Source: a virus. Taken from it: DNA of 29,780 nt. The notes beneath the pieces are model-generated. The model ran no database searches. It worked only from the letters and a program-made list of their open reading frames with translations, and was not told where the DNA came from. Every line of letters begins with the position of its first letter. Position 1 is the first letter of the stretch. Positions 3,287-27,287 of this stretch are shown piece by piece. The position numbers were made by a program, and so were the translations under genes. The DNA lies in the IMG/VR virus record IMGVR_UViG_3300047557_001054, positions 1 to 29,780 of that record; one strand, given 5' to 3'.

Positions 3287-4158
3287 TAGCGTTGCCCTCC
3301 TAATTGCGAGAATAGCCATTGAGTAAAGTCAACCCGTTGCTTACGTTCAACATCTACTGGAGATGCTTCCGTAAGGGTCTGCTCAATAGTTGACGCAATC
3401 TTTTCTTGTGAAAATCCTGGCTTCTGGATTACTTGAACTTCTTTCTTTCCAGTGGCTGGGTTTACTACCTTCTTGGAAGTAGTGAGAGTGCCCTTTTGAT
3501 ATAGCTTATTAATACCGCTAACCAAATCTTGATACCAGTCTTGCTGCTTATCTTCATCATTGATTGTGCGACCAAGGATTTTCTGAGCAGTCTCATCTAC
3601 ATCTGCTTCAATCTTTGCTTTAGGAACATCATAGATCTGGCGGGTGGGTAGGTTTTCTTTTCCACCATCACCAAATATGCCTGCGGCTCCTCGATTTACT
3701 ATGTTGGCATTGACTAAAGCTTCCATAGAAATGCTTGCTGCAGTAGGATCTTGTCTGGCTGATGCAAGTAGGTTCTTGCCTACGCCTTCCATCCAGGTTC
3801 CAAGAGTATTCGGATCTCTGTACTTTGTGCCAGTAGCCTTGAATACATTGGTTAGAATTGTATTATAAGCCTTTGGATTCCTGACAGATAGGTTAGTCAT
3901 AAACTGTGGGAACGTTCCAGGCATAACGTATAGGTCATTGCCGTCTTTATCAGTAAGGCCAAAGCCTACGATAACGCCGCGCTTGCTTGCTCCGGTATCT
4001 ACAGTTGTATCACCAAAGCTTGGTGGAGCGTCGTTTGCTGAAGTATTCTGAGAGTCCTTGGCCATAGCAGCTTTAGCAAGATCGGTGATTTGCTTATCCG
4101 ACAGATTGGGATACTTCTGTCGATACAACTTCTTGTAAGACTCTAGTGATTTAGCCAT
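3286..4158 (-). CDS. Putative virion structural protein (290 aa)
   Basis: The N-terminus is Lys/Tyr-rich (MAKSLESYKKLYRQKYPNLS). A low-complexity segment near residues 35-58 is followed by a mixed alpha/beta region with GVIVGFGLTDKDGNDLYVMPG, and then a Lys-rich beta hairpin (TTSKKVVNPATGKKEVQVI). No enzyme motif is visible. The start ATG at 4158 overlaps the 3' end of the 1759-aa gene by eight bases and has GGAGTAATCAAAA upstream. The stop is TAATG-coupled to the 295-aa gene. It is therefore part of the same translationally linked set of large structural candidates. Exact role unknown. Confidence 0.55.
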   Translation of the reverse strand: MAKSLESYKKLYRQKYPNLSDKQITDLAKAAMAKDSQNTSANDAPPSFGDTTVDTGASKRGVIVGFGLTDKDGNDLYVMPGTFPQFMTNLSVRNPKAYNTILTNVFKATGTKYRDPNTLGTWMEGVGKNLLASARQDPTAASISMEALVNANIVNRGAAGIFGDGGKENLPTRQIYDVPKAKIEADVDETAQKILGRTINDEDKQQDWYQDLVSGINKLYQKGTLTTSKKVVNPATGKKEVQVIQKPGFSQEKIASTIEQTLTEASPVDVERKQRVDFTQWLFSQLGGQR

Positions 4159-7100
4159 TTTTGATTACTCCGAATTTGTCGTTCTCTAGATAGCGGGTAT
4201 AGAAATCAGCAAAGCCTTTGTCGTACATCTTCATTTTCATTATGTACTCATCCCACTGTTCTTTTAGGTCTGCATTGTCTTCTGCATCTATGCTGCCGCT
4301 ACCGTAGTATTCTTTACGGGTTGCCAACTCTTGTGATACATAAGTTCTATTCAGGACATAATCTGTCATAGCCTGCATAGTCTTAGTACTGCCGTACTTC
4401 TTCATAAACTTCTCGTTAGAAACGAGGTCTATAACTCCCTTGACGTAGCGCTTTGTACGGTTTAGGTCAAAGTCACCCATCTCTTTTTCATAACCCCAGG
4501 CTTCATATTTCTTGCCTAGGTTCTCAACAAAGGTATCCCATCTTTCTTTGATACCTAAATCAGCAGCAGCGCTTGAGTTAATACTATTGATTCCATAGCT
4601 TGCTAGCTCAGCATCACGCTCTTCTACACCCTTTTGGTAGGCAGACCAGCCAAGGCTAATCTCTCTATCCTTTAAGATATCCTTGGTAACTCTGGATTCT
4701 GTCCACTTGGTTTCTCCGCCTGGGCGTAAAGTTTTGTCGCGGAAGAAGTTAGCTGCAGCATCTGAATACTTATCTGCGGTTGTTCCAAAGTTAGCAATAA
4801 ATCCAGCTAAGCCTGGAGTCTTGTTCTCATCCATCTTGCCGATAAGTCCAGCAAACTCTTTAGCATTGCGTACTGCATCTGCAGTCTGGAATACACCGGT
4901 TCTGTTACGGGCAGATGGAGCTGTAACAAAGAAACCTTTTTCGCCGTACATAGTCATTATGTACTCGTCGATTTTACCTGGGCCGATCTTTGGATCATTA
5001 ATAGCCCTGCGCCAGTCATCAACTATGAACTGATATTCTGGACGGAATGAGAATGTAAATGGCAAAACCATATTGGCAGCTAGACGTATTTCAAATGTCT
5101 GACGACCAAGTTCTAGAGCATCCTTAAAGGTAGGACGCTTGCCAATCATACCTTCGCTGCGCCACTGATAATCAAGAACCTTCATAGCAGTTCTAACGCT
5201 GTTAGCAAATGCTCCATCATCTAGACCGTTTTGTAAAGCAACAGCCTTTTGTGCAGCAGCAGGAAGTAATAACTTCCAAGGATCTTGAGCAGGTCTGCCG
5301 AATGGCATAATGCTGCTCATAATAGATCTGGCTACAGTTTCACCAGCTACCTTTGTAAGGAAGTCCTGGGCTGATTGAATCGCCTCTGGACGCTCATTAG
5401 CAAAAGCTGATACTGGAATAGTTACTGGAATACCAAAGGCTGGGAACAGCGGGTTCTCACCTTGCAAGAATACGTTAAGGCTGTTCTTTGGAATTGATAT
5501 ATCAAAGCCTTTTGGAATACCAAAGCGACCCTCTACACCCTCTGGGATATTGAAAAGGATATATTGCTGGGTAGATGGGCCTACACCTGGAGGAACTACG
5601 TCTCCATCTTGGTCTACTACTACAGCTACACGATTTGGTAGGTTCCAAATCTGAGCAGCACGAGCAATTCTTGATGGGTCTTGTAGTAATAACTTACCGT
5701 ATACCTTGATTGCGTTATACTGAGCATTAAAGAACGGTATAACAAAGCGTAATGTGTTGGAAAGACCTGTGTTATTGGTGATACGGTACAAGGTTTCCAT
5801 TGTAGTCTTACGAGAAGCAGCGTGAGCTGCACGTTCTAGTTGAATAATCAACTGTGGATCTTGTAGATTCTTACCTAGACCCTCTGCAATATCTGCTTCA
5901 CGCTTTAAGTTTCTTAAGTAAAGCTTCTGGTAGAAAGGCCAAGCCACTAGGTTATCTTCTGGTGTTGAACCGATTACCTTAAATAGATTCTCGATAGCAC
6001 CATTTATGCTGCGCTTGACAGCACCTTTACCATAGCCAAGAGTATTCTCAACTAAATCTCTACCAGCAATAGGAGCAAGGTTAGGATTGCCACGCATAAG
6101 AGCATCGAACTGCATAGGTGTCAGTTCTTCTCTAGCAATTAGGTTACGTACTTGCTGGTCTGGGAAGATACGATTGATACGAGCACGTGCCTCAGCGATA
6201 TGCTCAAGTACTTTACCTGGCTCAATGTCTCCGTCGATATCGCGTATGTAGAACTTTCCATCACTGCGAAGCCAAGAGGCAATAGCCTTGTCGCTTTCAC
6301 CCTGTAAAATACGCATAGCCAACGGGTCATTGCGTAGAATGAAGTTAGCAAATACTGACATCTCATTGTAATACTGTGGGTCAGTAGGTTGAACAACTGT
6401 TCTAGCCTCACTTAAGCGGTTACCCATATTCATAGCACTTGCACCCTTTTGGGCATCAAATGACATATAGGCTTGGTTCTCAGTCATCCAGTTTAGAGAA
6501 CCCATAGATGATACATCTCTACGAGTTAAATCACCGTTAGGACCAGAGAAGGCTCCATTTGCCTGCACCTTAGTGCCTGACCTTGTTGTAAACTCTATTG
6601 GCTTATCACCACTGCGAACAATCTTTAGCTCACTTCTGATGGTATTAAGCTGAGTTGACTGCTCAATCTTCTCAAGAATCTGATTGTCAAGTGCATCAAT
6701 CTGCTGTTGAAAGAAACGGATACGATACATCTGATCTTCAGGAATGATATCGGCAATCTCTTCAAAGTTACCCTTACGAGCCAAGTCATAATCTGTGATA
6801 ACACGGATATCTGGCTGTTGGATTGGTCCCTTACCGCGAACTTTAATCTTGCCATTACTTACAAGCTCATCGTATAGAACTGCAGATGGCAAACCTTTAC
6901 GTGCCTGCTGATCTGGGATAGCACCCTTTGGTAGGCGGCCCTTAGTTCCAGGAATCTTGTAGAAAACTTTACCACTTGGATAGTCTGCATAGACCAAGGT
7001 TGTACCCTTAGGCAGGGTAGGTACTACCTCTTCACGTACATAGCGACCAAATGCTTTGGACTGAAGGTTCTTAAGTTTATTTTGGTCATCACCGAAGAGC

Positions 7101-9430
7101 AATCCGTTTTGCTTTTTACGCTTTGCCATCAACTCAAAGTATGCGTTTCGCTCGCTATCCTTTAGTAAAGGCTTTGTCTTGGAAGTCATAGCGATTTCTA
7201 CATCTGTAGGATCTACCTGCTTGCCAAACTTGCCAGATGCTCCAGCATAGTAAGCCTGCGGAGTTACCTCATCAAGGATTGACTCACGCACTTGAAGCAT
7301 TTGGTTTCTCTGAAATACCAAACGACCTGTGAACTCATTAAGTTGCTTAGGGTTTTGTATCTTAAGAGTATCTTCAAAGTAGTTCTGAGTCTTGGTAAAG
7401 CGAACCGCTGTGTTATTTCTAAAGTTTTTGAAAGCATCATCAGTCTTAGCAAGGCTGTTTAATACTAGACCAGCACGAAGTTGACCATCAATGGTGTTAC
7501 GGATAGGGTAACCAAGACGGGTTAGAACCGAAACCTTAAACAAAGAGTTGGCAAAATCAATCCAGTCAGTAACTTCGCTCTTCATAGCAACGCCTCTGAC
7601 ACCAGGCTCCTTGAAAACCCTGTAGGCATCTAGTACTTTTTCAAAATCTTTGAAGTCCATCATAGGTACGATGTTAGGCATCTCTGATCTCCAGAATGGA
7701 GAGGTGACTAACTTGCCCATTTCATCTACATAGAATCCATTTTGCTGGATTCCAGACATAACACCACGACGAACGTTGCCAAACTGTTGATAAATCTCTC
7801 GGGCTTCTTCTACAGTAAAGCCTTTTTCAAGTGCAATAATATCAGCAATCTCTGCTTCAATGTTTTCTACAGCGGCAAGACGTTCTTTAGCATTGCGAGC
7901 ATTAAGGTAGCTGCGGGCTAAGTCGCTTTTAACCTCAAGATACTCTGCATTACGTAGAGGCTTAACAGAGTTTAGTGCATACTTAATTTCGCTAAAAGAA
8001 TCTGCTACTGGTCCACCGTCAACTCGCACAATACCCCGAGGTAGTTTGCTAAAAGGTAAAGTAACTACGGTTACTGGACGTGTAAATGGGTTCTTTTGGA
8101 ATGTCTCAGTGTAGAAAGAAGCGTTATGATAGGCCTCAGATGCTTTAGCCTTAGCCTTTTCAATAGCCACGCCAATGTTTTTGTTAAATAACTGTACATC
8201 TGCTGCGCTGGTATAGTCATTAATGATGCGATAGTCGCCAATGTTCTCGTTAATAGCCTTGGCTAAGTTCTCATCACGGCGAATAAGGTCATCTAATACC
8301 GCAGTTAGACGGTCATATTCCTCTACTGTTGGTAGATGGTCTTCAATTCTTACGCCTTGTCCCCAAGGGATGTCGTTGTATCTCTTCTCAACTGGGTCAA
8401 GAATGTTACGAGCACGGTCAATCTCATCAGCAATAGATGCTCTAGTCTTTAATAGACGGTTATATGAGTTCTTGTCGCCAGCGGCTGCAGCAATAATATC
8501 GGCTACTTCATCATAAGTCTGCGCTTCGCCAGTTACATCAGCCAAGAATGTACGATTTGTGGTACGACGCACAAAAACATCATCATAGTTCTTGATTGAG
8601 TCGCCTTCGGTCAAGCGCTGGGCAATAACACCCATAGGTGTTTCTCTGCCGATAGCACCGCCTGATTTAAGCCATAAACCGTGTGAATCTAGTTCAGAGC
8701 GTAGACGAACTACATCTTCAGCACTGGTAATAGGGCGATCTAGTCCAAGTATCTTACCGAACTTAAGAGCCTTACCAACTAAAACGCCTGGATCTGTATA
8801 CCAGTTAAGGAGTCCATCACCGAAACCGGTGAACACCTTACCAACAATTTCTTTTTCAAAGGCTACTTTACGGTCATCTGGATCTGCAATGTTAAAACTT
8901 GTCTCAAGAAAACGTGGTAAATCTATACCTTGCTCTTCTAGCGCAGGTGTTACGCCTGTTCTTTCTAGATTAGCACCGATGACGGCAGCATAAGCTTGAA
9001 ATGGAGATACATCTTTGGCTAAATCCCAGGCCTTAATTAGATCATAACCATTACCAGCTACAGCATCTGCATTGGCTAGAACTGCTGTGCTAATTGGACG
9101 GGTAATCTTTGGATAAGCCCATTGATAAAAGTCAGTAGCAGCCTGCAGTACATCATCAACTGCTGTAGCTACGCCGATTGTCTCCATCGGTCTTGCTGCA
9201 ATATCTACTGCAGTGGTAGCTATGTCGGTTGCGGCTTTGTCAACCTTCTTTTCAATCTTCTTTTTTACAGCTACGCCAGTTTTCTTAGCTAGCTCAGGCT
9301 CTTGCACAGCAACACGTGCTTGTGTAACGCCAGCACCTAGGCCTGTTACAGCCTTGATTGGTGTAGCTAAAGCGTTGCCAACGGCATTGCCGATTGCCTT
9401 CTTAAGAGAGTCCCAGTAACTTTCAGCCAT
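4151..9430 (-). CDS. Giant putative internal virion (DNA ejection) protein, 1759 aa
   Basis: This is the largest gene in the window. The N-terminus is Ala/Lys/Val-rich and amphipathic (IGNAVGNALATPIKAVTGLG; AVKKKIEKKVDKAATDIATT). A long helical body follows, with a semi-hydrophobic region (VTDWIDFANSLFKVSVLTRLGYPIRN split over about residues 605-635). Another such region is LRFVIPFFNAQYNAIKVYGKLL (about 1235-1255, quoted in part). A very Lys/Tyr-rich C-terminus follows. In short-tailed phages, proteins of this size are internal core proteins released into the host to conduct DNA (T7 gp16 type). I do not see a transglycosylase ESxxxP-type motif at the N-terminus. Start: ATG at 9430 with AGAGGTAAGTA before it, overlapping the 51-aa gene by eight bases. 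Ejection role is inference from size, composition and position. Confidence 0.65.
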   Translation of the reverse strand: MAESYWDSLKKAIGNAVGNALATPIKAVTGLGAGVTQARVAVQEPELAKKTGVAVKKKIEKKVDKAATDIATTAVDIAARPMETIGVATAVDDVLQAATDFYQWAYPKITRPISTAVLANADAVAGNGYDLIKAWDLAKDVSPFQAYAAVIGANLERTGVTPALEEQGIDLPRFLETSFNIADPDDRKVAFEKEIVGKVFTGFGDGLLNWYTDPGVLVGKALKFGKILGLDRPITSAEDVVRLRSELDSHGLWLKSGGAIGRETPMGVIAQRLTEGDSIKNYDDVFVRRTTNRTFLADVTGEAQTYDEVADIIAAAAGDKNSYNRLLKTRASIADEIDRARNILDPVEKRYNDIPWGQGVRIEDHLPTVEEYDRLTAVLDDLIRRDENLAKAINENIGDYRIINDYTSAADVQLFNKNIGVAIEKAKAKASEAYHNASFYTETFQKNPFTRPVTVVTLPFSKLPRGIVRVDGGPVADSFSEIKYALNSVKPLRNAEYLEVKSDLARSYLNARNAKERLAAVENIEAEIADIIALEKGFTVEEAREIYQQFGNVRRGVMSGIQQNGFYVDEMGKLVTSPFWRSEMPNIVPMMDFKDFEKVLDAYRVFKEPGVRGVAMKSEVTDWIDFANSLFKVSVLTRLGYPIRNTIDGQLRAGLVLNSLAKTDDAFKNFRNNTAVRFTKTQNYFEDTLKIQNPKQLNEFTGRLVFQRNQMLQVRESILDEVTPQAYYAGASGKFGKQVDPTDVEIAMTSKTKPLLKDSERNAYFELMAKRKKQNGLLFGDDQNKLKNLQSKAFGRYVREEVVPTLPKGTTLVYADYPSGKVFYKIPGTKGRLPKGAIPDQQARKGLPSAVLYDELVSNGKIKVRGKGPIQQPDIRVITDYDLARKGNFEEIADIIPEDQMYRIRFFQQQIDALDNQILEKIEQSTQLNTIRSELKIVRSGDKPIEFTTRSGTKVQANGAFSGPNGDLTRRDVSSMGSLNWMTENQAYMSFDAQKGASAMNMGNRLSEARTVVQPTDPQYYNEMSVFANFILRNDPLAMRILQGESDKAIASWLRSDGKFYIRDIDGDIEPGKVLEHIAEARARINRIFPDQQVRNLIAREELTPMQFDALMRGNPNLAPIAGRDLVENTLGYGKGAVKRSINGAIENLFKVIGSTPEDNLVAWPFYQKLYLRNLKREADIAEGLGKNLQDPQLIIQLERAAHAASRKTTMETLYRITNNTGLSNTLRFVIPFFNAQYNAIKVYGKLLLQDPSRIARAAQIWNLPNRVAVVVDQDGDVVPPGVGPSTQQYILFNIPEGVEGRFGIPKGFDISIPKNSLNVFLQGENPLFPAFGIPVTIPVSAFANERPEAIQSAQDFLTKVAGETVARSIMSSIMPFGRPAQDPWKLLLPAAAQKAVALQNGLDDGAFANSVRTAMKVLDYQWRSEGMIGKRPTFKDALELGRQTFEIRLAANMVLPFTFSFRPEYQFIVDDWRRAINDPKIGPGKIDEYIMTMYGEKGFFVTAPSARNRTGVFQTADAVRNAKEFAGLIGKMDENKTPGLAGFIANFGTTADKYSDAAANFFRDKTLRPGGETKWTESRVTKDILKDREISLGWSAYQKGVEERDAELASYGINSINSSAAADLGIKERWDTFVENLGKKYEAWGYEKEMGDFDLNRTKRYVKGVIDLVSNEKFMKKYGSTKTMQAMTDYVLNRTYVSQELATRKEYYGSGSIDAEDNADLKEQWDEYIMKMKMYDKGFADFYTRYLENDKFGVIKNG

Positions 9431-9578: not shown

Positions 9579-9991
9579 AGATTTCCCTGGATAGATCTAA
9601 CGAATATACGGAAAGATTCTGGTGCATCTGGGTTAGCTGCCATAGCATCTAGGGCTGGCATATACTTAGCAATAATGTCATTGTCTTTTTGACGAATGGA
9701 GTTCATAGCAAGAGCTTCAGGTCCTGGACCTTCACCCATTGCAATACCTGCTGTGATTGGTTCATCTGGGCGCTGTGATGGAGCAAGCAATGGAGTTACT
9801 GGTTCTTGTACAGCATCACGTACTTCAGATGCTGGTATGCCACGAACATCTGGTGTTCTTGCAAGTGGAGCGCCTGATTTGATAGCGGCAGTCTCTACAC
9901 CTTCACCATAAGCGATTGAACCCATATTCATATCAGTTCTCTTGGAGAACTTGCCTGGACCTGATGCGCCAGCGAGTGGTCCTCTAGCCAT
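9575..9991 (-). CDS. Conserved structural-module protein (138 aa)
   Basis: The N-terminus is Gly/Ala/Pro-rich and flexible (MARGPLAGASGPGKFSKRTD, then YGEGVETAAIKSGAPLA). The middle is Pro-rich (VTPLLAPSQRPDEPITAG) and a short helical C-terminus follows (PDAPESFRIFVRSIQGNL). No motif of known function is present. It sits between portal-proximal small genes and the giant ejection-protein gene, overlapping both neighbours by a few bases (ATGG start at 9991 inside the previous gene; GTGA at its stop). The disordered N-terminus is in keeping with a minor virion or assembly factor, which is inference. Confidence 0.6.
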   Translation of the reverse strand: MARGPLAGASGPGKFSKRTDMNMGSIAYGEGVETAAIKSGAPLARTPDVRGIPASEVRDAVQEPVTPLLAPSQRPDEPITAGIAMGEGPGPEALAMNSIRQKDNDIIAKYMPALDAMAANPDAPESFRIFVRSIQGNL

Positions 9992-10205
9992 TATTGTCCT
10001 CCATCTTTTCTAAATCTTGTGTGAATTGTTCCCAAGCCTGATTAACTTGGTTCTTTCTAATTGCGTTGTATGTAGCTAAATCTAAAACTTCTTCTGCAAA
10101 CACGTGTATTGCACTCATTATGTTGTGAAACAAACCTGCAAATAAAACGCCAATATCAGCGAGACGGATAGAACGTGGGATGTAATCTGGTTCTTTGTCG
10201 CTCAC
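9984..10205 (-). CDS. Small hypothetical protein (73 aa, GTG start)
   Basis: The start is GTG at 10205 (MSDKEPDYIPRSIRL) with GAGAGGAT five bases upstream. The central segment (about residues 16-45) is hydrophobic to amphipathic (LADIGVLFAGLFHNIMSAIHV), so a membrane-associated or amphipathic helix is possible. The C-terminus is helical and charged (QAWEQFTQDLEKMEDNNG). It overlaps the next gene by eight bases. Its place between portal and ejection-protein genes suggests a small head-tail or assembly component, but nothing in the sequence names it. Confidence 0.6.
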   Translation of the reverse strand: MSDKEPDYIPRSIRLADIGVLFAGLFHNIMSAIHVFAEEVLDLATYNAIRKNQVNQAWEQFTQDLEKMEDNNG

Positions 10206-10384: not shown

Positions 10385-12121
10385 TCAACCTGCGATTTGT
10401 GCGAGCAATGTTGCTATATCTGGACGAGCGCCAGCAGCAGGGGCCGCACCAGCCATCATTTCTGGACTTGGCTGCGAGGCAGGGACTGGGGCCATACCTG
10501 CTGCTGGAACTTGTTCACCCATCATTTCTTCTGGGGCCTGTGGTTGCGGCTCTGGGAATATCTCAGAAACTATCGTTTCGAGTTGCTTACCCTTTTGCCG
10601 ACCTTTAATAACTTCAGCAATTCTTGAAACAATGAGAGAAGGATCTTGGCCTTGTGCTGCAAGCGCTGGAATTGCTTGGGCGTACTGAGCAACAGCAACA
10701 CGCAAAGAATCACGAATCTCTTCAACGTCAATACGTTGTTCTTCTTGAGTAACATTTAGCTCCATTGGGATTTCACGACGTACATAATCACGTGATACGA
10801 GCTTATCGCTACGCATCTGTAGTAGAGCAATGATTGCGCGGTTAGGATCCATACCAGACATAATGCCGTAGCGAACATCTACGCCGTATTCACCAGCGAT
10901 TTGCTTGCTTGGTACGTACTTCATTGAAAATGGTGTGCCATCTTCACTGCCGCGAATCTCTTTGGTCATAGAACCGAAGATCTTCTCGTCTACCTCAAAG
11001 CAAAGTGCTACAAGTTCTGTGAATAAACGAGCAAATTGTGCTTGAGCAGAGCGAATCTGGGTATCAAAGCCAGCTTGTAGGGCTTGTACGCCACGTCCTG
11101 TGACTACAGAAGCATCTAGATTACCGCTTCTTACCTCTGGATAGCGTGAACCGAGGCGCAATTCGCGCTCTAATACACCTGATTCAGTAAATACTCCGTT
11201 AGGAAGTTCCAGCGGTACGCGGCGAATTGCTTGAGGATTAGCAGAACGCATAATCGCATCAGGGCCAAGGGCGAGTTCTTGGACATCCTGCGGAATAGCA
11301 ATAGGTGCTTGAATCGATTTCTCTGCTGCTTGAATCTGCAGAACAGCAAATCGAGCACGTGCAAGCTGTACCGCTAGAACATCATCAAATTGACCACGTG
11401 CTTCGCCATCGATAGATGAGCGAACAGCAACGGATGCTAAGCATTTACCAACCGGGTTTGGTATGTTAGCCAAAACTAGGTTGTTACGCTCTGGGATAAA
11501 GATTAAATCTTGGTCTTTGTCGTGGTAGCGAACCAAGGAAAGCAAAGGAGATGACTGCTGATATTGATTGCGACCTAGGATTTCCGAGTAGAACTCTGGG
11601 TATTGAGACGCGAGAGATTCAGCATCGGAGGCAACAATCTGAGTGATTGAGATTGTGCGGCCGAATCTGTCGATTTCTGGGTAAACACCAAACGGATTAA
11701 GTAGACGAATACGCGGATTGTTAGTCTCATAATCCATCTCCACAATCGCAGGAAGCATTCCGTAGGTGTTAAACCAGTCTGCTCCAGAATACATCTGGAT
11801 TTGTAGGTCTGAAGATGCTACATAATAGTTAGCAATACGCGTTCTAACATCTGCAGCTTTACGTGCATTGTCTGAAACCATATTAGTTGCTGAGCATTCA
11901 AAGGCTGGAAGTGGAGCCATAGCCTCAGCTAAGTCACGAGCAGCTACATCAATGAAGTTTGCAACAAGTGGCTTTGGATACTCTTCGGAAAACATTGCAG
12001 GATAGACACGACTAATGTCACCTTGGCGCACAGAAAGGACATCGCGCATACGCTGATCGCGCTTTGCGTATCTGGTCTGAAGGCGTGCAACCTTCGCAAT
12101 GACCTCGTTAGTGCTTAACAT
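10385..12121 (-). CDS. Portal protein
   Basis: The 578-aa product fits the size of phage portal proteins, the dodecameric ring at the capsid vertex through which DNA is packaged and ejected. Features visible: a helical N-terminus (VIAKVARLQTRYAKRDQRM), a beta-rich wing-like region with NPFGVYPEIDRFGRTI, a central helical region with QLARARFAVLQIQAAEKS, the motif VVTGRGVQALQAGFDTQIRS in the stem/clip area, and a Pro/Ala/Met-rich tail (about residues 520-578). It is next to the terminase (two microgenes between), as is usual. The ATG at 12121 has AGGAGACAT upstream. No frameshift seen. Confidence 0.85.
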   Translation of the reverse strand: MLSTNEVIAKVARLQTRYAKRDQRMRDVLSVRQGDISRVYPAMFSEEYPKPLVANFIDVAARDLAEAMAPLPAFECSATNMVSDNARKAADVRTRIANYYVASSDLQIQMYSGADWFNTYGMLPAIVEMDYETNNPRIRLLNPFGVYPEIDRFGRTISITQIVASDAESLASQYPEFYSEILGRNQYQQSSPLLSLVRYHDKDQDLIFIPERNNLVLANIPNPVGKCLASVAVRSSIDGEARGQFDDVLAVQLARARFAVLQIQAAEKSIQAPIAIPQDVQELALGPDAIMRSANPQAIRRVPLELPNGVFTESGVLERELRLGSRYPEVRSGNLDASVVTGRGVQALQAGFDTQIRSAQAQFARLFTELVALCFEVDEKIFGSMTKEIRGSEDGTPFSMKYVPSKQIAGEYGVDVRYGIMSGMDPNRAIIALLQMRSDKLVSRDYVRREIPMELNVTQEEQRIDVEEIRDSLRVAVAQYAQAIPALAAQGQDPSLIVSRIAEVIKGRQKGKQLETIVSEIFPEPQPQAPEEMMGEQVPAAGMAPVPASQPSPEMMAGAAPAAGARPDIATLLAQIAG

Positions 12122-21916: not shown

Positions 21917-22150
21917 CTATTGTAGTTCCTTTTCAATAGCCTGAATAGTTGAGCAGGGATAAGATGAATGTTCACAACTATCACACATTAGTATATCAAG
22001 ATAGTTTTCACGCTTAACTGGCTTATGCAATTCCATTACTGCACGAAGAGCAAACAAAGAACGAGCAGGAAACCATTCACCAATGGCACCAACAAATGCA
22101 CCTTCGTCTATGTCCTTGTTTATGTATGCAATTAACTCTTCGTGTGTCAT
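21917..22150 (-). CDS. Conserved phage protein with Cys pair (77 aa)
   Basis: ATG at 22150 overlaps the epimerase TGA. The pattern FALRAVMELHKPV followed by ILMCDSC ... YPCSTIQAIEKEL is one I recognise from many actinobacterial phages and their hosts. C-x2-C with a downstream YPC may bind zinc. Function unknown. Confidence 0.75.
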   Translation of the reverse strand: MTHEELIAYINKDIDEGAFVGAIGEWFPARSLFALRAVMELHKPVKRENYLDILMCDSCEHSSYPCSTIQAIEKELQ

Positions 22151-23010
22151 AGTATTCCCTTGACCGCCATCTCTATACCTTGTTCCAAAGTAATCTTTGG
22201 TTGGTAGAAAGATAACATCTTTTCGTTATCAGATACCCGGTGCATACATCCAACAGGCTTATCAGGTCTAGTCTTAATCTCACCTTTGTAACCAACAGCA
22301 TCCATAGATAGTTGTGCTAGCTCTAAGAATGAAGTAGATCTGCCCCAACCAAGATTGACTGGTCCAATAGATGGCGCTTCAAGCGCAGCCATTACAGCAC
22401 CAACAATATCTTTGATATGAATGAAGTCTCTAGTCTGTGTGCCTGGTCCCCATACTTCAAATGGGTCAGCTTTGTCTAGCGCTCGCTTTACATACATCGG
22501 GAATGGATAGTTCAAGTCTTGGTCTGTACCATATCCGCTGAATGGTCTAAAGATATAGACATTATCCACAAAGGATGCAAGGTATTCGCCAATCAACTTG
22601 GATGCACCATATGTCATATCAGGCATAGACAGATGTTCCCAGCAAGACATAGTTTCTTTTAGTTTAACGTGACGCTCGTTAGTCTGTAGTGATACTGGAT
22701 AGGCAGCACTGCTTGAGAAGTACACTACCTTCTTAGGTTTAGTCTTTAAGCACCACTGAAAGAACTCAGAGTCAATAGAAAAGTTATCAGCCACTGCAAG
22801 TGGGCGACCCTCGATGGATTCACGCCCACCTACGATGGCTGCTAGATGGATCACTAGGTCGAACTGTCTATCAACAGACTTAAATAAGTCACGGCAATCA
22901 CCGTTGTCTTTAATATCCATACCATATACAGTCCATCCATCTTTGTTGAGATACTCAGTAAAGTATCTGCCAACAAAACCTTTATCTCCAGTCACCAGTG
23001 CTTTCTTCAT
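22147..23010 (-). CDS. NAD(P)-dependent sugar epimerase/dehydratase (287 aa)
   Basis: Extended short-chain dehydrogenase fold. The NAD-binding VTGDKGFVGRYF (GxxGxxG, residues 7-18), LVIHLAAIVGG (near 53-63), the Ser strand VVYFSSSAAYP, and the catalytic YGASK (Y-x3-K, about 136-140). FRPFSGYGTDQ and TRDFIHIKDIVGA further down are typical of GDP-fucose synthase and UDP-sugar epimerase relatives. It acts on nucleotide-sugars in the cytoplasm. It is ATGA-coupled to the glycosyltransferase gene, so both probably modify one target: virion glycan, host surface or DNA. Confidence 0.88.
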   Translation of the reverse strand: MKKALVTGDKGFVGRYFTEYLNKDGWTVYGMDIKDNGDCRDLFKSVDRQFDLVIHLAAIVGGRESIEGRPLAVADNFSIDSEFFQWCLKTKPKKVVYFSSSAAYPVSLQTNERHVKLKETMSCWEHLSMPDMTYGASKLIGEYLASFVDNVYIFRPFSGYGTDQDLNYPFPMYVKRALDKADPFEVWGPGTQTRDFIHIKDIVGAVMAALEAPSIGPVNLGWGRSTSFLELAQLSMDAVGYKGEIKTRPDKPVGCMHRVSDNEKMLSFYQPKITLEQGIEMAVKGIL

Positions 23011-23675
23011 TGGCTTACTTTCATCATAACTCTAATAGCATCTTCTTTAAGTTGGTGTGTGCAGTATTCTCTGAAGGCTTCAGCATCGTGGTTGCCAATC
23101 TCAGATGAGTTAACCTCCTGATACTGGGCATCTACCTTAGACTTGCCAGCCATATAGTGCATATGTTCTACGATTACATCAGGGTTATAGTCTAGGCAGC
23201 TAAGTACCTGACCAAATAGTTTCCAGAAGTTATCCATATACAGATGGATTAGTCTTGGTGGTGCAAAGAAACCTAACTCTTTAGAGATGTTGGTTGACAT
23301 CATCACCATAGTAGGTAGGTTCTCACCCTGGAATAGGTCGTTACCATATGAGATGCCATAGCCTCTAGTCCTAATAGGTTCATAGAGTTTCTTGTCCCAC
23401 TCAGCAGTTCTGACGAGGTGATCATCTCCCATAAAGGAGATAGTTTCATACTTGTCCTGATACTTCTTGACCAGCAGATTCAAGGTTCCATTCATACGAA
23501 GTCTTGGGTTGACCTCTCTGATCACACCTTCCATCTCTGGGTAGCTATCAGCATCGTCATCATCTAAACCAATCAACAGGTCTGAGATAACGCTGTGTTC
23601 CTTTAGCGCATCAAAGGCAATCTTCGCCTTGTCTGGTCTACCTCTTGCTGGGATAATCACTAGGTTTGTATTCAT
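23007..23675 (-). CDS. Glycosyltransferase-like protein, GT-A fold (222 aa)
   Basis: It opens with NLVIIPARGRPDKAKIAFDA, the nucleotide-sugar strand and helix of GT-A enzymes. An acidic cluster GLDDDDADSYPEM and a second acidic motif SFMGDDHLVRT (near residues 78-88) fit the DxD metal site. A later part (FFAPPRLIHLYMDNFWKLFG) is a probable acceptor region. Start ATG 23675 follows the helicase TAA directly. Probably transfers the sugar made by the next gene's product; acceptor unknown. Confidence 0.75.
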   Translation of the reverse strand: MNTNLVIIPARGRPDKAKIAFDALKEHSVISDLLIGLDDDDADSYPEMEGVIREVNPRLRMNGTLNLLVKKYQDKYETISFMGDDHLVRTAEWDKKLYEPIRTRGYGISYGNDLFQGENLPTMVMMSTNISKELGFFAPPRLIHLYMDNFWKLFGQVLSCLDYNPDVIVEHMHYMAGKSKVDAQYQEVNSSEIGNHDAEAFREYCTHQLKEDAIRVMMKVSQ

Positions 23676-25139: not shown

Positions 25140-26081
25140 TTACTTACCTCCGGTTTTCTTGATGGAAAGCCTTGCGCTTTCCTTCCCTTGTTTAGTCGGC
25201 ACAAAGCCTAGTGCTTTCTCCACTGCTTCTTTGTCGACTGTATTGCTCTGGATAGTAGACCACTTGATCTCATAACCAGTTGAAGTAACCCCAGTAATAC
25301 CTTGTAAGGCTTCCCGTAGAGCTTCCTTCTTGGCTTCTAACGCCTTGATTTCTTCATCTACTTGTGCATAGTGAAGAGCTGTGATACCTGTCTGAGTATC
25401 TTCAATGATTGGTAACTCAGTTTTTATAACTTCTTTTTTTAGACCAACGCATCCCATCTCGCCTGTCGGGTCATAGAACTTGCAATAGAATTTGCAGTAT
25501 GACTCATCGCGTTCCGGTGCTGGTGCTTCAGCAGATTCCTTGATAGCAGCAAGCCAGTTAAGGGCTTCTAGTGCTATCGCTTCATCGTATGGTTCGGAGT
25601 GAACTTTGATATCGCGCTCATCTCCATCTCTTGGTATGGCTACCAGATTGACAGTTTTGACCTTCCCCTTGCCAGACTTTTCAATAAGGTAGCCATAAGT
25701 TTGTACCTGCCAGCGCTGTTGTTGGCTCGGGAAGTAGCTTAGGTTCTTAGCCTTTACTGTCTTCCAGTCAATGACATCTCCTGAGTCCGGTAGGAAAGCA
25801 TCAACGTGAGCCTTCATTCCGTTGTATTCAACGGTAGTCTCTAGCATTATTGAGTTGTTACCAGCAAAAGCATTCTCGATTGCAGAGTGAATAGCTGTGC
25901 CCATTATGGCAGCAAGCTTTAACTCATTGTCGTTAGTCTCGGGCTGGTTGTTGAGTCGATACCAAACCTTACGGCGGCATCCACCCAATTCTGATGGACC
26001 AATCTGTACCTGTGTACTGCGTGGTCTGTTGTTTTCTTTATCGTGTAATGCTTTAACAAGCATCTCTTTAATGTTAGTCAT
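25140..26081 (-). CDS. Fe-S PD-(D/E)XK exonuclease, RecB/Cas4-like (313 aa)
   Basis: GGCRRKVWYRL (C35), GTAIHSAIE (H65), HVDAFLP (D94), VIDWKT (D105-x-K107) and QVQTYGYL (Q127) give the nuclease site order of RecB/Cas4-type enzymes. C35 with C196, C200 and C211 (YCKFYCKFYDPTGEMGC) makes a plausible Fe-S cluster that clamps the fold. A C-terminal coiled coil (about 240-262) follows. It likely resects double-strand ends for recombination-dependent replication. No cas genes or CRISPR array are nearby. ATG at 26081 overlaps the end of the microprotein gene. Confidence 0.85.
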   Translation of the reverse strand: MTNIKEMLVKALHDKENNRPRSTQVQIGPSELGGCRRKVWYRLNNQPETNDNELKLAAIMGTAIHSAIENAFAGNNSIMLETTVEYNGMKAHVDAFLPDSGDVIDWKTVKAKNLSYFPSQQQRWQVQTYGYLIEKSGKGKVKTVNLVAIPRDGDERDIKVHSEPYDEAIALEALNWLAAIKESAEAPAPERDESYCKFYCKFYDPTGEMGCVGLKKEVIKTELPIIEDTQTGITALHYAQVDEEIKALEAKKEALREALQGITGVTSTGYEIKWSTIQSNTVDKEAVEKALGFVPTKQGKESARLSIKKTGGK

Positions 26082-26160
26082 TCTTATGCGCTCCGTGATT
26101 GAAAACTAATATAACAAAGACTAAAAGAAGATAGCCTAATATCCACCACATCAAACCCAT
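26074..26160 (-). CDS. 28-aa transmembrane microprotein
   Basis: The frame from ATG 26160 (MGLMWWILGYLLLVFVILVF) to TAA 26076-26074 is one membrane helix with a short polar tail (NHGAHKND). AGGTGG lies five bases upstream of 26160. A second ATG at 26151 makes TGATG with the upstream stop, so either start would be coupled. Its end overlaps the exonuclease start. Role unknown. Confidence 0.65.
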   Translation of the reverse strand: MGLMWWILGYLLLVFVILVFNHGAHKND

Positions 26161-26339
26161 ATCTGCCACCTGGTAAAAGTAACATTAAAAAACAAGAAGT
26201 TCAACTGAAATATAGATGCTTCGTGAGCACCTGATGGATGATCGTATAGCTTGTAGTAATCAAAACCTAAAGCAAAGTTGTTTATATAGTGTCTATTGAA
26301 ATGAACACTATACCTGCCAAGGTCGTAGTCTGGTTTCAT
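26151..26339 (-). CDS. Small aromatic-rich protein (62 aa)
   Basis: ATG at 26339 is TAATG-coupled to the protease gene, with AAGGAG five bases upstream. It is rich in Tyr, Phe, His and Asn (YSVHFNRHYINNFALGFDYY), and ends LFFNVTFTRWQIWV. No Cys motif or long hydrophobic helix. Probably a small beta protein. Function unknown. Confidence 0.65.
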   Translation of the reverse strand: MKPDYDLGRYSVHFNRHYINNFALGFDYYKLYDHPSGAHEASIFQLNFLFFNVTFTRWQIWV

Positions 26340-26902
26340 TAATACTCCTTATGTTGGATAACCAACTGTATTGGCGGGCAGGTATTAACGTCAAGCATTG
26401 ATGCTATCTGAACAGCTTTCTCGGCGTGTCGAGCTGGATCTAAATTAAGTTGGCGACCAGGAAGACCACTAAGGTAGCCAAGACCAAACTGCCCACCAGA
26501 GCCAAGGCCGTAGATACCTTGGTCGCTTTTGATGAATGATAAGTCCACTGCGATATGAAATAGATGAGCGTTGAACGCCACGAGATAATCAAATCCTGAA
26601 TCTTTATCTTTGCCCGCTTCATAAGGTTCGTATCCATTCTCCTTAAAAGCCGTGACTATGGACGGCAGTACTTTCTTACCCATCCATTGGATGGGGTCTG
26701 CACCTTTATACACAGGTGGCTTCCAGTTATAAGTTAAGATATCACCAGGGCGCGAATCGCCGGTAATACCCAGCAGATACTTCCCAACGGAGATTATCTT
26801 TGGCGTGGATGTACTTACGGTGCGTAAGTTATCCTCGGTGATTTGAGAATCGGCAGCTAATACACAGCGGTCCTCTAATTCAATTCCAATCAGGGTAGTC
26901 AT
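26339..26902 (-). CDS. HslV/proteasome-beta-like Ntn hydrolase (187 aa)
   Basis: It opens MTTLIGIELEDRCVLAADSQ: removal of Met leaves an N-terminal Thr, the nucleophile of HslV and proteasome beta subunits. Counting mature residues, D17 (AADSQ) and K34 (TPKI, usually K33) follow. YGLGSGGQFGLGYL (S134) matches the GSGG turn of HslV, and HAEKAVQIASMLDVNTCPPI matches the helix AREIAxKAL of that family. Length fits an unmodified beta-type subunit. No HslU or other ATPase is nearby, so a host unfoldase or self-standing role is possible. AAGGAG is 15 bases from the ATG, longer than usual. Confidence 0.85.
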   Translation of the reverse strand: MTTLIGIELEDRCVLAADSQITEDNLRTVSTSTPKIISVGKYLLGITGDSRPGDILTYNWKPPVYKGADPIQWMGKKVLPSIVTAFKENGYEPYEAGKDKDSGFDYLVAFNAHLFHIAVDLSFIKSDQGIYGLGSGGQFGLGYLSGLPGRQLNLDPARHAEKAVQIASMLDVNTCPPIQLVIQHKEY

Positions 26903-27059
26903 AGTCAGAAAATTTTACTCCTTATACGGCGTGTCGTCACAGCGACACACCCAGCGGATTATTATAATATGAGCCGAAGGCGAATTACAGACGGCCCCTA
27001 TACGGGGCCGAGGCGGAAGCCGAGAGGCGACTGACCACAGGAAGGAGCCGTGCCGAGCA
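26903..27059. promoter_or_regulatory. Divergent spacer with four hairpins
   Basis: Between the protease gene and the plus-strand Cys-rich gene: GTGTCG/CGACAC (26931-26936 and 26943-26948), GCC-GAA-GGC (26973-26981), CGGCCCC/GGGGCCG (26992-26998 and 27004-27010, 5-base loop) and GGC-GGAA-GCC (about 27012-27021). A palindromic ATTATAAT (26961-26968) gives a TATAAT on both strands, but no good -35 is visible on either side. No T-tract follows the stems. Looks like a bidirectional promoter with a structured leader. Confidence 0.45.
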
Positions 27060-27287
27060 ATGCGGTTACGTCTACCAAGGCTGCGGAAAAATAGCTTACC
27101 ACCAATACAGGCCTCTGACCTTAGAGGTGTTGGTCCGACGCATCAATGCGTCTGCGGTTGCACCGTCTTTTCTACCTATGTCCAGTTTGATAACTACGAG
27201 ATCTGCTGGTATGCCTTAGATGTGCAGTGTGCCAACTGTGGCAACCTACTAAAAGCTCCCTGTCCTATCGACAAACCTGACATCTAA
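27060..27287 (+). CDS. Cys-rich zinc-binding-like protein (75 aa)
   Basis: ATG at 27060 with AGGAG twelve bases upstream. A basic start (MRLRLPRLRKNSLPPI) precedes HQCVCGCTVFSTYVQFDNYE, then ICWYALDVQCANCGNLLKAP and CPIDKPDI. The CxCxC and CxxC groups around a beta hairpin form a zinc-ribbon pattern I know from short phage proteins of actinobacteria. It is the only plus-strand gene between two minus-strand blocks, with its own structured leader, so it may be separately regulated. Function unknown. Confidence 0.7.
   Translation: MRLRLPRLRKNSLPPIQASDLRGVGPTHQCVCGCTVFSTYVQFDNYEICWYALDVQCANCGNLLKAPCPIDKPDI

Follow-up and report, generated by a model that had tools for sequence, protein, structure and literature searches.

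A predicted BPH-like threonine protease gene with two fixed positions in a large lineage of actinophages

Introduction

What a phage does with a proteasome-like protease subunit when no gene for an unfoldase accompanies it is the question raised by the locus described here. Phage proteasome homologues without an ATPase are already known (PMC8665760, PMC7823757; PHROG 1040). In its available text, PMC8665760 named PPH and AAH, reported no co-occurring AAA+ partner and no actinobacteria-specific phage with AAH, and described phage proteasome homologues as offering limited functional clues, no partner and an uninformative gene context; the available part of PMC7823757 describes a Salmonella jumbo phage with two HslV genes and no HslU.

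The window, that is, the whole stretch of DNA that was analyzed (29,780 bases), is the entire virus record IMGVR_UViG_3300047557_001054 of IMG/VR and is probably incomplete, since relatives reach 40-43 kb. On its minus strand, a 187-aa ORF with an ATG start encodes a protein with the N-terminus MTTLIG (Table 1). The first-pass annotation, made from the sequence alone, had taken this protein for a phage-encoded HslV/proteasome-like Ntn hydrolase without an ATPase partner.

Table 1. Features of the window around the protease gene and the portal gene.
Feature	Position	Strand	Remarks
Proteasome-like (HslV/BPH-type) threonine protease subunit	26339..26902	-	187 aa, MTT start; predicted active site T2, D18, K35, G48, S135, D171, T174
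62-aa ORF	26151..26339	-	one-base overlap with the protease stop; next gene in 80/80 window-type loci (best 80 of at least 595)
Hydrophobic 28-aa ORF	26074..26160	-	no matching ORF in 7 loci checked
Cas4/PD-(D/E)XK-type exonuclease	25140..26081	-	next large gene of the protease operon
Divergent 75-aa gene	27060..27287	+	zinc-ribbon-like by its cysteines; neighbour in 77/80 window-type loci, contig ends first in 3 (best 80 of at least 595)
-10-like hexamer TAAAAT	26912..26917	-	9 nt 5' of the start codon; putative leaderless-type promoter
Inverted repeat GTGTCG...CGACAC, then GCCG	26927..26948	.	just upstream of the -10; in 56/57 unique upstream regions
Portal gene	10385..12121	-	E7/F5-type protease homologue sits directly behind portal
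73-aa ORF	9984..10205	-	next after portal in 78/80 window-type loci, contig end in 2; takes the place of the protease

Results

Relatives of the window and probable host

Two cultured phages, OX376640 and OX376641 (Caudovirales sp. ct2KA10), are named LanE43-AprE7 and LanE43-AprF5 (E7 and F5 below) and, according to the text available from PMC10202952, were isolated on Ca. Planktophila LanE-43. That text mentions genes for host-protein degradation, and its main part does not contain the words protease, HslV or proteasome. The identity between F5 and the window was 46% for TerL, 50% for the portal, 43% for the DnaB-like ATPase and 54% for a tail protein, among others, and the gene order was broadly similar. 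The WhiB gene present in the window and its G+C content of 45.6% make an actinobacterial host likely; the habitat is probably freshwater. The virion region of the window also encodes a 1759-aa protein (4151-9430; phrog_10618) in a place that is common to the giant proteins of Streptomyces phage Stella (Beephvirinae) and F5, and its sequence is strongly variable between near relatives.

A scan of IMG/VR detected at least 595 stretches that encode relatives of the window protease (window-type), the scan with the F5 protein detected 199 (F5-type or E7/F5-type), and the DSL-LC01-type scan detected 3. The loci analyzed were the best 80 of the at least 595 and the best 80 of the 199. The homologue set used below comprised 164 sequences, namely 81 window-type (window included), 80 F5-type and 3 DSL-LC01-type.

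Homology and predicted fold

The window protein matched PHROG 1040, "peptidase HslV family", over residues 1-186 (E 8.7e-20). Its Pfam Proteasome score was 20.1 bits, just below the cut-off of 22.4, and 37 of 39 alignment members matched this family at E <= 0.01 (best 2.8e-9). The profile of these 39 relatives matched HslV (1.1e-9) and BPH (2.4e-9 over residues 2-183) in the PDB. Together with the AlphaFold2 model, these matches show that the ORF is more than a chance reading frame, and they bear out its first reading as a proteasome-like Ntn hydrolase. HslV proper was ruled out, because the protein scored 27.6 bits with the curated HslV models, far under both cut-offs (137 for NF003964 and 157.75 for TIGR03692).

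The AlphaFold2 model of the window protein had a pLDDT of 86.2 and a pTM of 0.84. The first-pass annotation had proposed a superposition on HslV and had named a non-catalytic family as the result that would speak against it. Instead, the top rows were BPH, HslV and 20S beta chains, and all 1000 compared chains reached Z >= 8. BPH (5ovt) was best, with Z 20.3, an rmsd of 2.6 and 173 aligned residues, and HslV and 20S beta chains gave Z values of about 18-19 (HslV about 19); differences in Z of less than 1 are ties, and BPH was ahead of the best HslV row by about 1. Residue 2 of the model superposed on residue 1 of the BPH, HslV and 20S beta chains. Helices 51-59 and 70-88 were both present, the secondary structure ended with strand 179-184, and the compact group I core had H1-H4 and no S12/H5, a trait of AAH that other group I members share. 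The F5-type model (IMG/VR copy L110, pLDDT 90.8) had the same predicted fold, with archaeal 20S beta (Z 19.1), BPH (19.0) and HslV (18.8) tied. In a viral structure library, 41 predicted viral structures matched at E <= 0.001, several of which were named phage proteasome or HslV-type. As modeled, the window protein has the Ntn fold of the proteasome beta-subunit core, of the Thr1 type.

Active site and selection

The MTT start, D17, K34 and GSGG turn on which the early reading had relied were all present; T1, D17 and K34 are counted from Thr2 and are T2, D18 and K35 in protein numbering, with the turn at G134-G137. T2, T3, D18, K35 and G48 were invariant in the 164 homologues. Position 135 was Ser in 129 and Thr in 35 of them, position 171 was Asp in 121 and Asn in 43, and position 174 was Thr in 160 and Ser in 4. 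The active-site set corresponds to proteasome Thr1, Asp17, Lys33, Gly47, Ser129, Asp166 and Ser169, as given in the available text of PMC4792962, with S135, D171 and T174 equated with the last three through spacing and motif rather than superposition.

The codon read as start directly preceded Thr-Thr in 164/164 homologues, which would leave a free N-terminal Thr after Met removal, by analogy with the family. This codon was ATG or GTG except in L019. That sequence (L019:10001), the sole window-type homologue without ATG or GTG before Thr-Thr, has an ATT codon, a longer leader and an SD-like stretch. Farther homologues drift at this site: the G028 protein, described below, has Thr-Ala (Thr2 kept, Thr3 changed to Ala), many proteobacterial phages have Thr-Cys, and Ser stands for Thr2 in pT24 and in two MAG proteins.

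The median dN/dS was 0.126 in window-type (866 pairs) and 0.148 in F5-type sequences (750 pairs). Since the full active-site set is kept under purifying selection, a decoy is unlikely. The earlier argument that active-site conservation means function and not a decoy thus gained the backing of the residues kept in 164/164 homologues and a dN/dS of about 0.13.

Two fixed gene positions

The window-type gene lies between the divergent 75-aa gene and the 62-aa ORF, at the head of an exonuclease-WhiB-DnaB operon. In 74 of 80 E7/F5-type loci (best 80 of 199) the protease gene comes immediately after the portal gene; the other 6 are cut by the contig edge. The order in F5 is TerL, two small ORFs, portal, protease, small ORFs, giant protein, two further ORFs, scaffold and capsid. 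The window-type protease does not occupy this prohead-protease slot beside the portal, where the 73-aa ORF is found in 78/80 loci. The two types of protein were 31% identical.

Each of 12 window-type contigs searched, which had been picked for having the protease, carried one copy. Among 16 contigs sampled from 80 that were fetched by their portal, 8 carried the protease (5/5 at >= 36 kb and 3/11 of the shorter ones). The protease looks like a core gene of the window-type phage group, the long portal-fetched contigs numbering five.

Two trees were made, both without any BPH row. The first had 44 rows and several long branches, and the second left out Ae2L372D_211, Ec_HslV, Chromatiales_L193, Gamma_L194, Hum25, Tunturi5 and Pumpern. 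In the second tree the window-type, F5-type and DSL-LC01-type proteins were joined with 100/99 support. The support for window-type and F5-type as sisters was 88/78.6, and pairing either of them with the DSL-LC01 type was not rejected (p-AU 0.39 and 0.38). With this support modest and the alternatives unrejected, the data fit both a single gene that changed place and two separate acquisitions. The G028 protein (contig L325:378-944) is intermediate, with 40% identity to the window protein and 39% to a DSL-LC01-type protein. Its gene adjoins, on the upstream side, the same divergent gene as the window-type, which suggests that the window-type position is old.

A single-sequence scan of cellular genome contigs gave 28 pattern matches and no relative. 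The scan with alignment A1 gave 2 relatives among 43 matches, one in a Chromatiales MAG and the other in a gammaproteobacterial MAG; the two proteins start Met-Ser and are far from the window lineage. No near cellular source of the protease was found by this pattern-limited search. In the broad viral scan with A1, the best 80 were only near window-type relatives, with no further types.

Homologues in other phages

The cultured actinophages Hum25 and Pitbull (Arthrobacter) and Pumpernickel (Microbacterium) have homologues annotated "protease". In 16 annotated phage contexts outside the lineage (a 17th, phiTY18, has no annotation and was left out), the protease was mostly among early- or middle-type genes. 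With flanks of about 2.5-8 kb, a nucleotide-metabolism gene (thymidylate synthase, ribonucleotide reductase, dihydrofolate reductase, thymidylate kinase or dCMP deaminase) was near the homologue in 10 of the 16, and a portal or capsid gene adjoined it in none. A terminase gene is about 5 kb from the homologue in DSL-LC01.

In Vibrio phages henriette 12B8 (L106:3630-5528) and V6Aob (L109:3283-4528), a peptide deformylase gene precedes the HslV-family gene by two or three genes. This could be chance or a functional link, since a deformylase would act before Met is removed and Thr1 exposed. Aeromonas phage 2L372D has two adjacent genes, gp210 and gp211 (L108:3399-4852), both annotated as peptidase HslV family; the products, of 183 and 294 aa, are very unlike and possibly form a two-subunit arrangement.

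Promoter and operon

The protease gene is the first of a leftward run to the exonuclease, WhiB and DnaB-like genes. The annotated place at the head of the replication operon before a 62-aa protein was therefore right, while the membrane microprotein proposed with it exists as an ORF in the window and is absent at the 7 other loci checked. Two more distant genomes, G018 and G026, carry the protease beside the exonuclease, and tblastn did not find the 62-aa ORF in them; as an obligatory partner in general this ORF was rejected, although a diverged copy could escape the search.

Of the 57 unique window-type upstream regions, 56 have a TANNNT hexamer whose last base lies 4-10 nt ahead of the start codon (mean 7.1 and maximum 18 in shuffles), and 2 have an SD-like motif. 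The start codons of these 57 were ATG in 34, GTG in 22 and ATT in one. In the F5-type upstream regions, SD-like motifs were found in 38 of 59 and the hexamer in 10 of 59 against 4.8 expected, a small excess. Leaderless transcripts are common in actinobacteria and show such a hexamer close to the start. The leaders of G028 and G026 carry the SD-like AAGGAG, so that the leaderless start looks, by sequence, to be derived within the window-type. If translation starts leaderless at Met-Thr-Thr, the N-terminus on which a threonine protease depends would be fixed. The inverted repeat upstream of the -10, which occurs once in the window, is a possible operator or activator site.

Elsewhere in the replication operon, a gene that is nucleotide-sugar epimerase-like by sequence and a 222-aa gene (22147-23675) form a variable cassette, present in the window, G001, G003 and G009 and unmatched in G005, G006, G008, F5 and E7. 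The head of the F5 replication operon (L099:31880-32657) has ORFs of 61 and 202 aa that match neither the protease nor the 62-aa ORF nor the exonuclease; together they may encode a divergent nuclease.

Pore loop and search for an unfoldase

In the alignment, the pore loop of the window protein was about 13 residues longer than that of E. coli K-12 HslV. The basic pore residues R86, R89 and K90 of HslV, named in the available text of PMC5777263, align to K77, P80 and S81, so two of the three are lost. Loop 89-105 had a net charge of -1 to -5 and was negative in 164/164 homologues. As far as the available text of PMC5777263 describes it, BPH has a long acidic pore loop and no HslU partner, forms 14-subunit double rings, reacts with epoxomicin and is inert on standard substrates. 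A pore that has lost R89 and K90 and carries a long acidic loop, like that of BPH, makes an HslU partner unlikely, and the earlier suggestion that host HslU might serve as unfoldase lost ground accordingly.

The window alone would be a weak basis for the absence of an unfoldase gene, and 14 further related records were added to the search. AAA_2 was found in 0 of these 15 phage records (the window, 12 window-type contigs, F5 and E7), and AAA in 2, both times inside the DnaB-like ATPase gene of F5 or E7. The window itself had no AAA_2 or AAA match and no HslU, in an HslU search in which 5 of 14 controls pass the cut-off. The completeness of the IMG/VR virus contigs is uncertain, and F5 and E7 are isolate genomes. 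Within this scope the search agreed with the first-pass annotation that no ATPase partner gene accompanies the protease. Mpa, which had also been named as a possible unfoldase, docks on an alpha ring, and a role for it is thus unlikely.

Discussion

Proposed role and alternatives

We propose that the gene encodes an active BPH-like threonine protease without a dedicated unfoldase, which acts early in infection by window-type phages, and we think this proposal has roughly even prospects of being right. Host methionine aminopeptidase would remove Met1 and expose Thr2 as the nucleophile, as in the family, and the subunits would most likely assemble into a homo-oligomeric double ring. Such a ring would work without a dedicated AAA+ unfoldase, like BPH, and presumably without ATP; the long acidic pore loop in place of the short HslV loop would give entry to flexible or already unfolded chains only. 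In window-type phages the protease, with its own promoter and probably on a leaderless mRNA, would be the first product of the replication operon and would act in the replication phase on host or phage proteins. This reading draws on the fold, the conserved active site, purifying selection, the promoter pattern, the pore loop and the absence of a phage AAA+ unfoldase, and we also counted for it the gene in all five portal-fetched contigs of at least 36 kb and the outside contexts, with nucleotide-metabolism genes in 10/16 and adjoining portal or capsid genes in 0/16. We counted against it the E7/F5-type gene behind the portal, which suggests a late role, the BPH lead of only about 1 in Z with a tie for the F5-type model, and Asn in place of D171 in 43/164. 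As BPH is inert on standard substrates in the part of PMC5777263 available, likeness to BPH is no proof of proteolysis in the cell.

The portal-side gene makes virion maturation the natural rival. The protease would trim or remove scaffold, portal-core or ejection proteins during head assembly; the E7/F5-type enzyme would be produced along with the portal, and the window-type gene would have moved to another operon with its role kept. The portal directly upstream in 74/80 E7/F5-type loci speaks for this, as do the absence of a protease family among 9 late proteins of G001 in a PHROGs scan and the retention of the gene in both lineages. However, the window-type gene has its own promoter in the replication operon, and the capsid N-termini align from their first residue while scaffold is encoded by a gene of its own, so that no cleavable delta domain is evident. 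Stella, which has related TerL and portal, is without an annotated protease in the stretch shown, and no homologue in the 16 contexts outside the lineage adjoins a portal or capsid gene. Virion-protein maturation, one of the earlier suggestions, thus gained weight from the E7/F5-type position and lost it from the window-type gene outside the structural block; we hold it to be possible but somewhat unlikely. A broader version would make the proteasome-fold enzyme the head-maturation protease of the whole actinophage lineage, so that the E7/F5-type would digest scaffold or core in the procapsid and the early leaderless copy of the window-type would keep this role or add a new one. This version we consider unlikely.

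Recruitment of a host unfoldase (ClpX, ClpC or the proteasomal ATPase), with folded host proteins as the substrates, would fit the fact that most relatives of the fold work with an AAA+ ring, while the phage itself has none. Against such docking stands the pore, which keeps a basic residue at only one of the three HslV positions and, like that of the ATPase-independent BPH, has a long acidic loop. HslV is unmarked for Actinobacteria in Table 1 of PMC8665760, so that host HslU is probably absent, and the available text of that paper reports no co-occurring AAA+ partners for the new homologues. Borrowing is in our judgment distinctly improbable. Still more doubtful is that the protein degrades nothing and instead acts like connectase, as a ligase or processing enzyme for one substrate, or else as a decoy that is built into host proteasomes or obstructs them. 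Connectase is a family member turned specific ligase (PMC8665760, available text), and the relatives differ strongly in sequence, down to the 31% identity between the two types; however, the model is without the connectase-type S3/S4 helical insertion, and a decoy is at odds with the complete active site and the purifying selection. The early BPH-like protease is the best supported reading.

Significance and comparison with known systems

The observation is real, ordinary in kind and interesting in placement, and it can be tested in cultured phages; its function is what we infer. Because E7 and F5 can be propagated on a Ca. Planktophila strain in culture, and phages of Arthrobacter globiformis and Microbacterium carry farther homologues, a role without an unfoldase is directly testable. 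The lineage gives phage proteasome homologues a gene context, with a portal-locked and a replication-operon-locked form, both with an intact active site. Three points are new: a large actinophage lineage with the protease, including the cultured Planktophila phages E7 and F5; the two fixed positions, one opening the replication operon after a leaderless-type promoter and one immediately after the portal, the usual prohead-protease slot; and, as read from the sequences, a long acidic pore loop with two of three HslV basic pore residues lost, as in BPH. In searches of the open-access PMC literature we found no description of a proteasome-fold gene behind a phage portal or in the window lineage, and the word protease is absent from the main text of PMC6802176 and PMC10611076, as far as these texts are available.

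The known prohead proteases of tailed phages have folds other than that of the proteasome. They share with the E7/F5-type gene the slot behind the portal, whereas the window-type gene is located elsewhere. PHROG 1040 matches the window protein over its full length but is a sequence cluster that is not tied to a function. AAH and PPH, as described in the available text of PMC8665760, are likewise group I proteasome homologues carried by phages, with no known partner. PPH has a length of about 140 aa and lacks helix H2, whereas the window protein has 187 aa and H2 in the model, which rules out its identity with PPH. AAH is set apart by description: it had no actinobacteria-specific phage, whereas WhiB occurs in the window lineage, and relatives within it were isolated on an actinobacterium. 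If the window protein is AAH, it fills this gap named by PMC8665760.

With HslV (ClpQ), the phage protein shares the Thr1-Asp17-Lys33 active site, the GSGG turn and the compact subunit, but it differs in scores far under the HslV cut-offs, a loop about 13 residues longer, the loss of R89 and K90 and the lack of HslU. BPH (PDB 5ovs/5ovt; PMC5777263, available text) is the best fold match and a full-length profile match, and it likewise has no propeptide, a long acidic pore loop and no HslU partner. The differences are an identity of about 18-24%, the phage origin of the gene described here and, in the profile alignment, a phage loop about 3 residues shorter. In all likelihood, the phage protein works like BPH.
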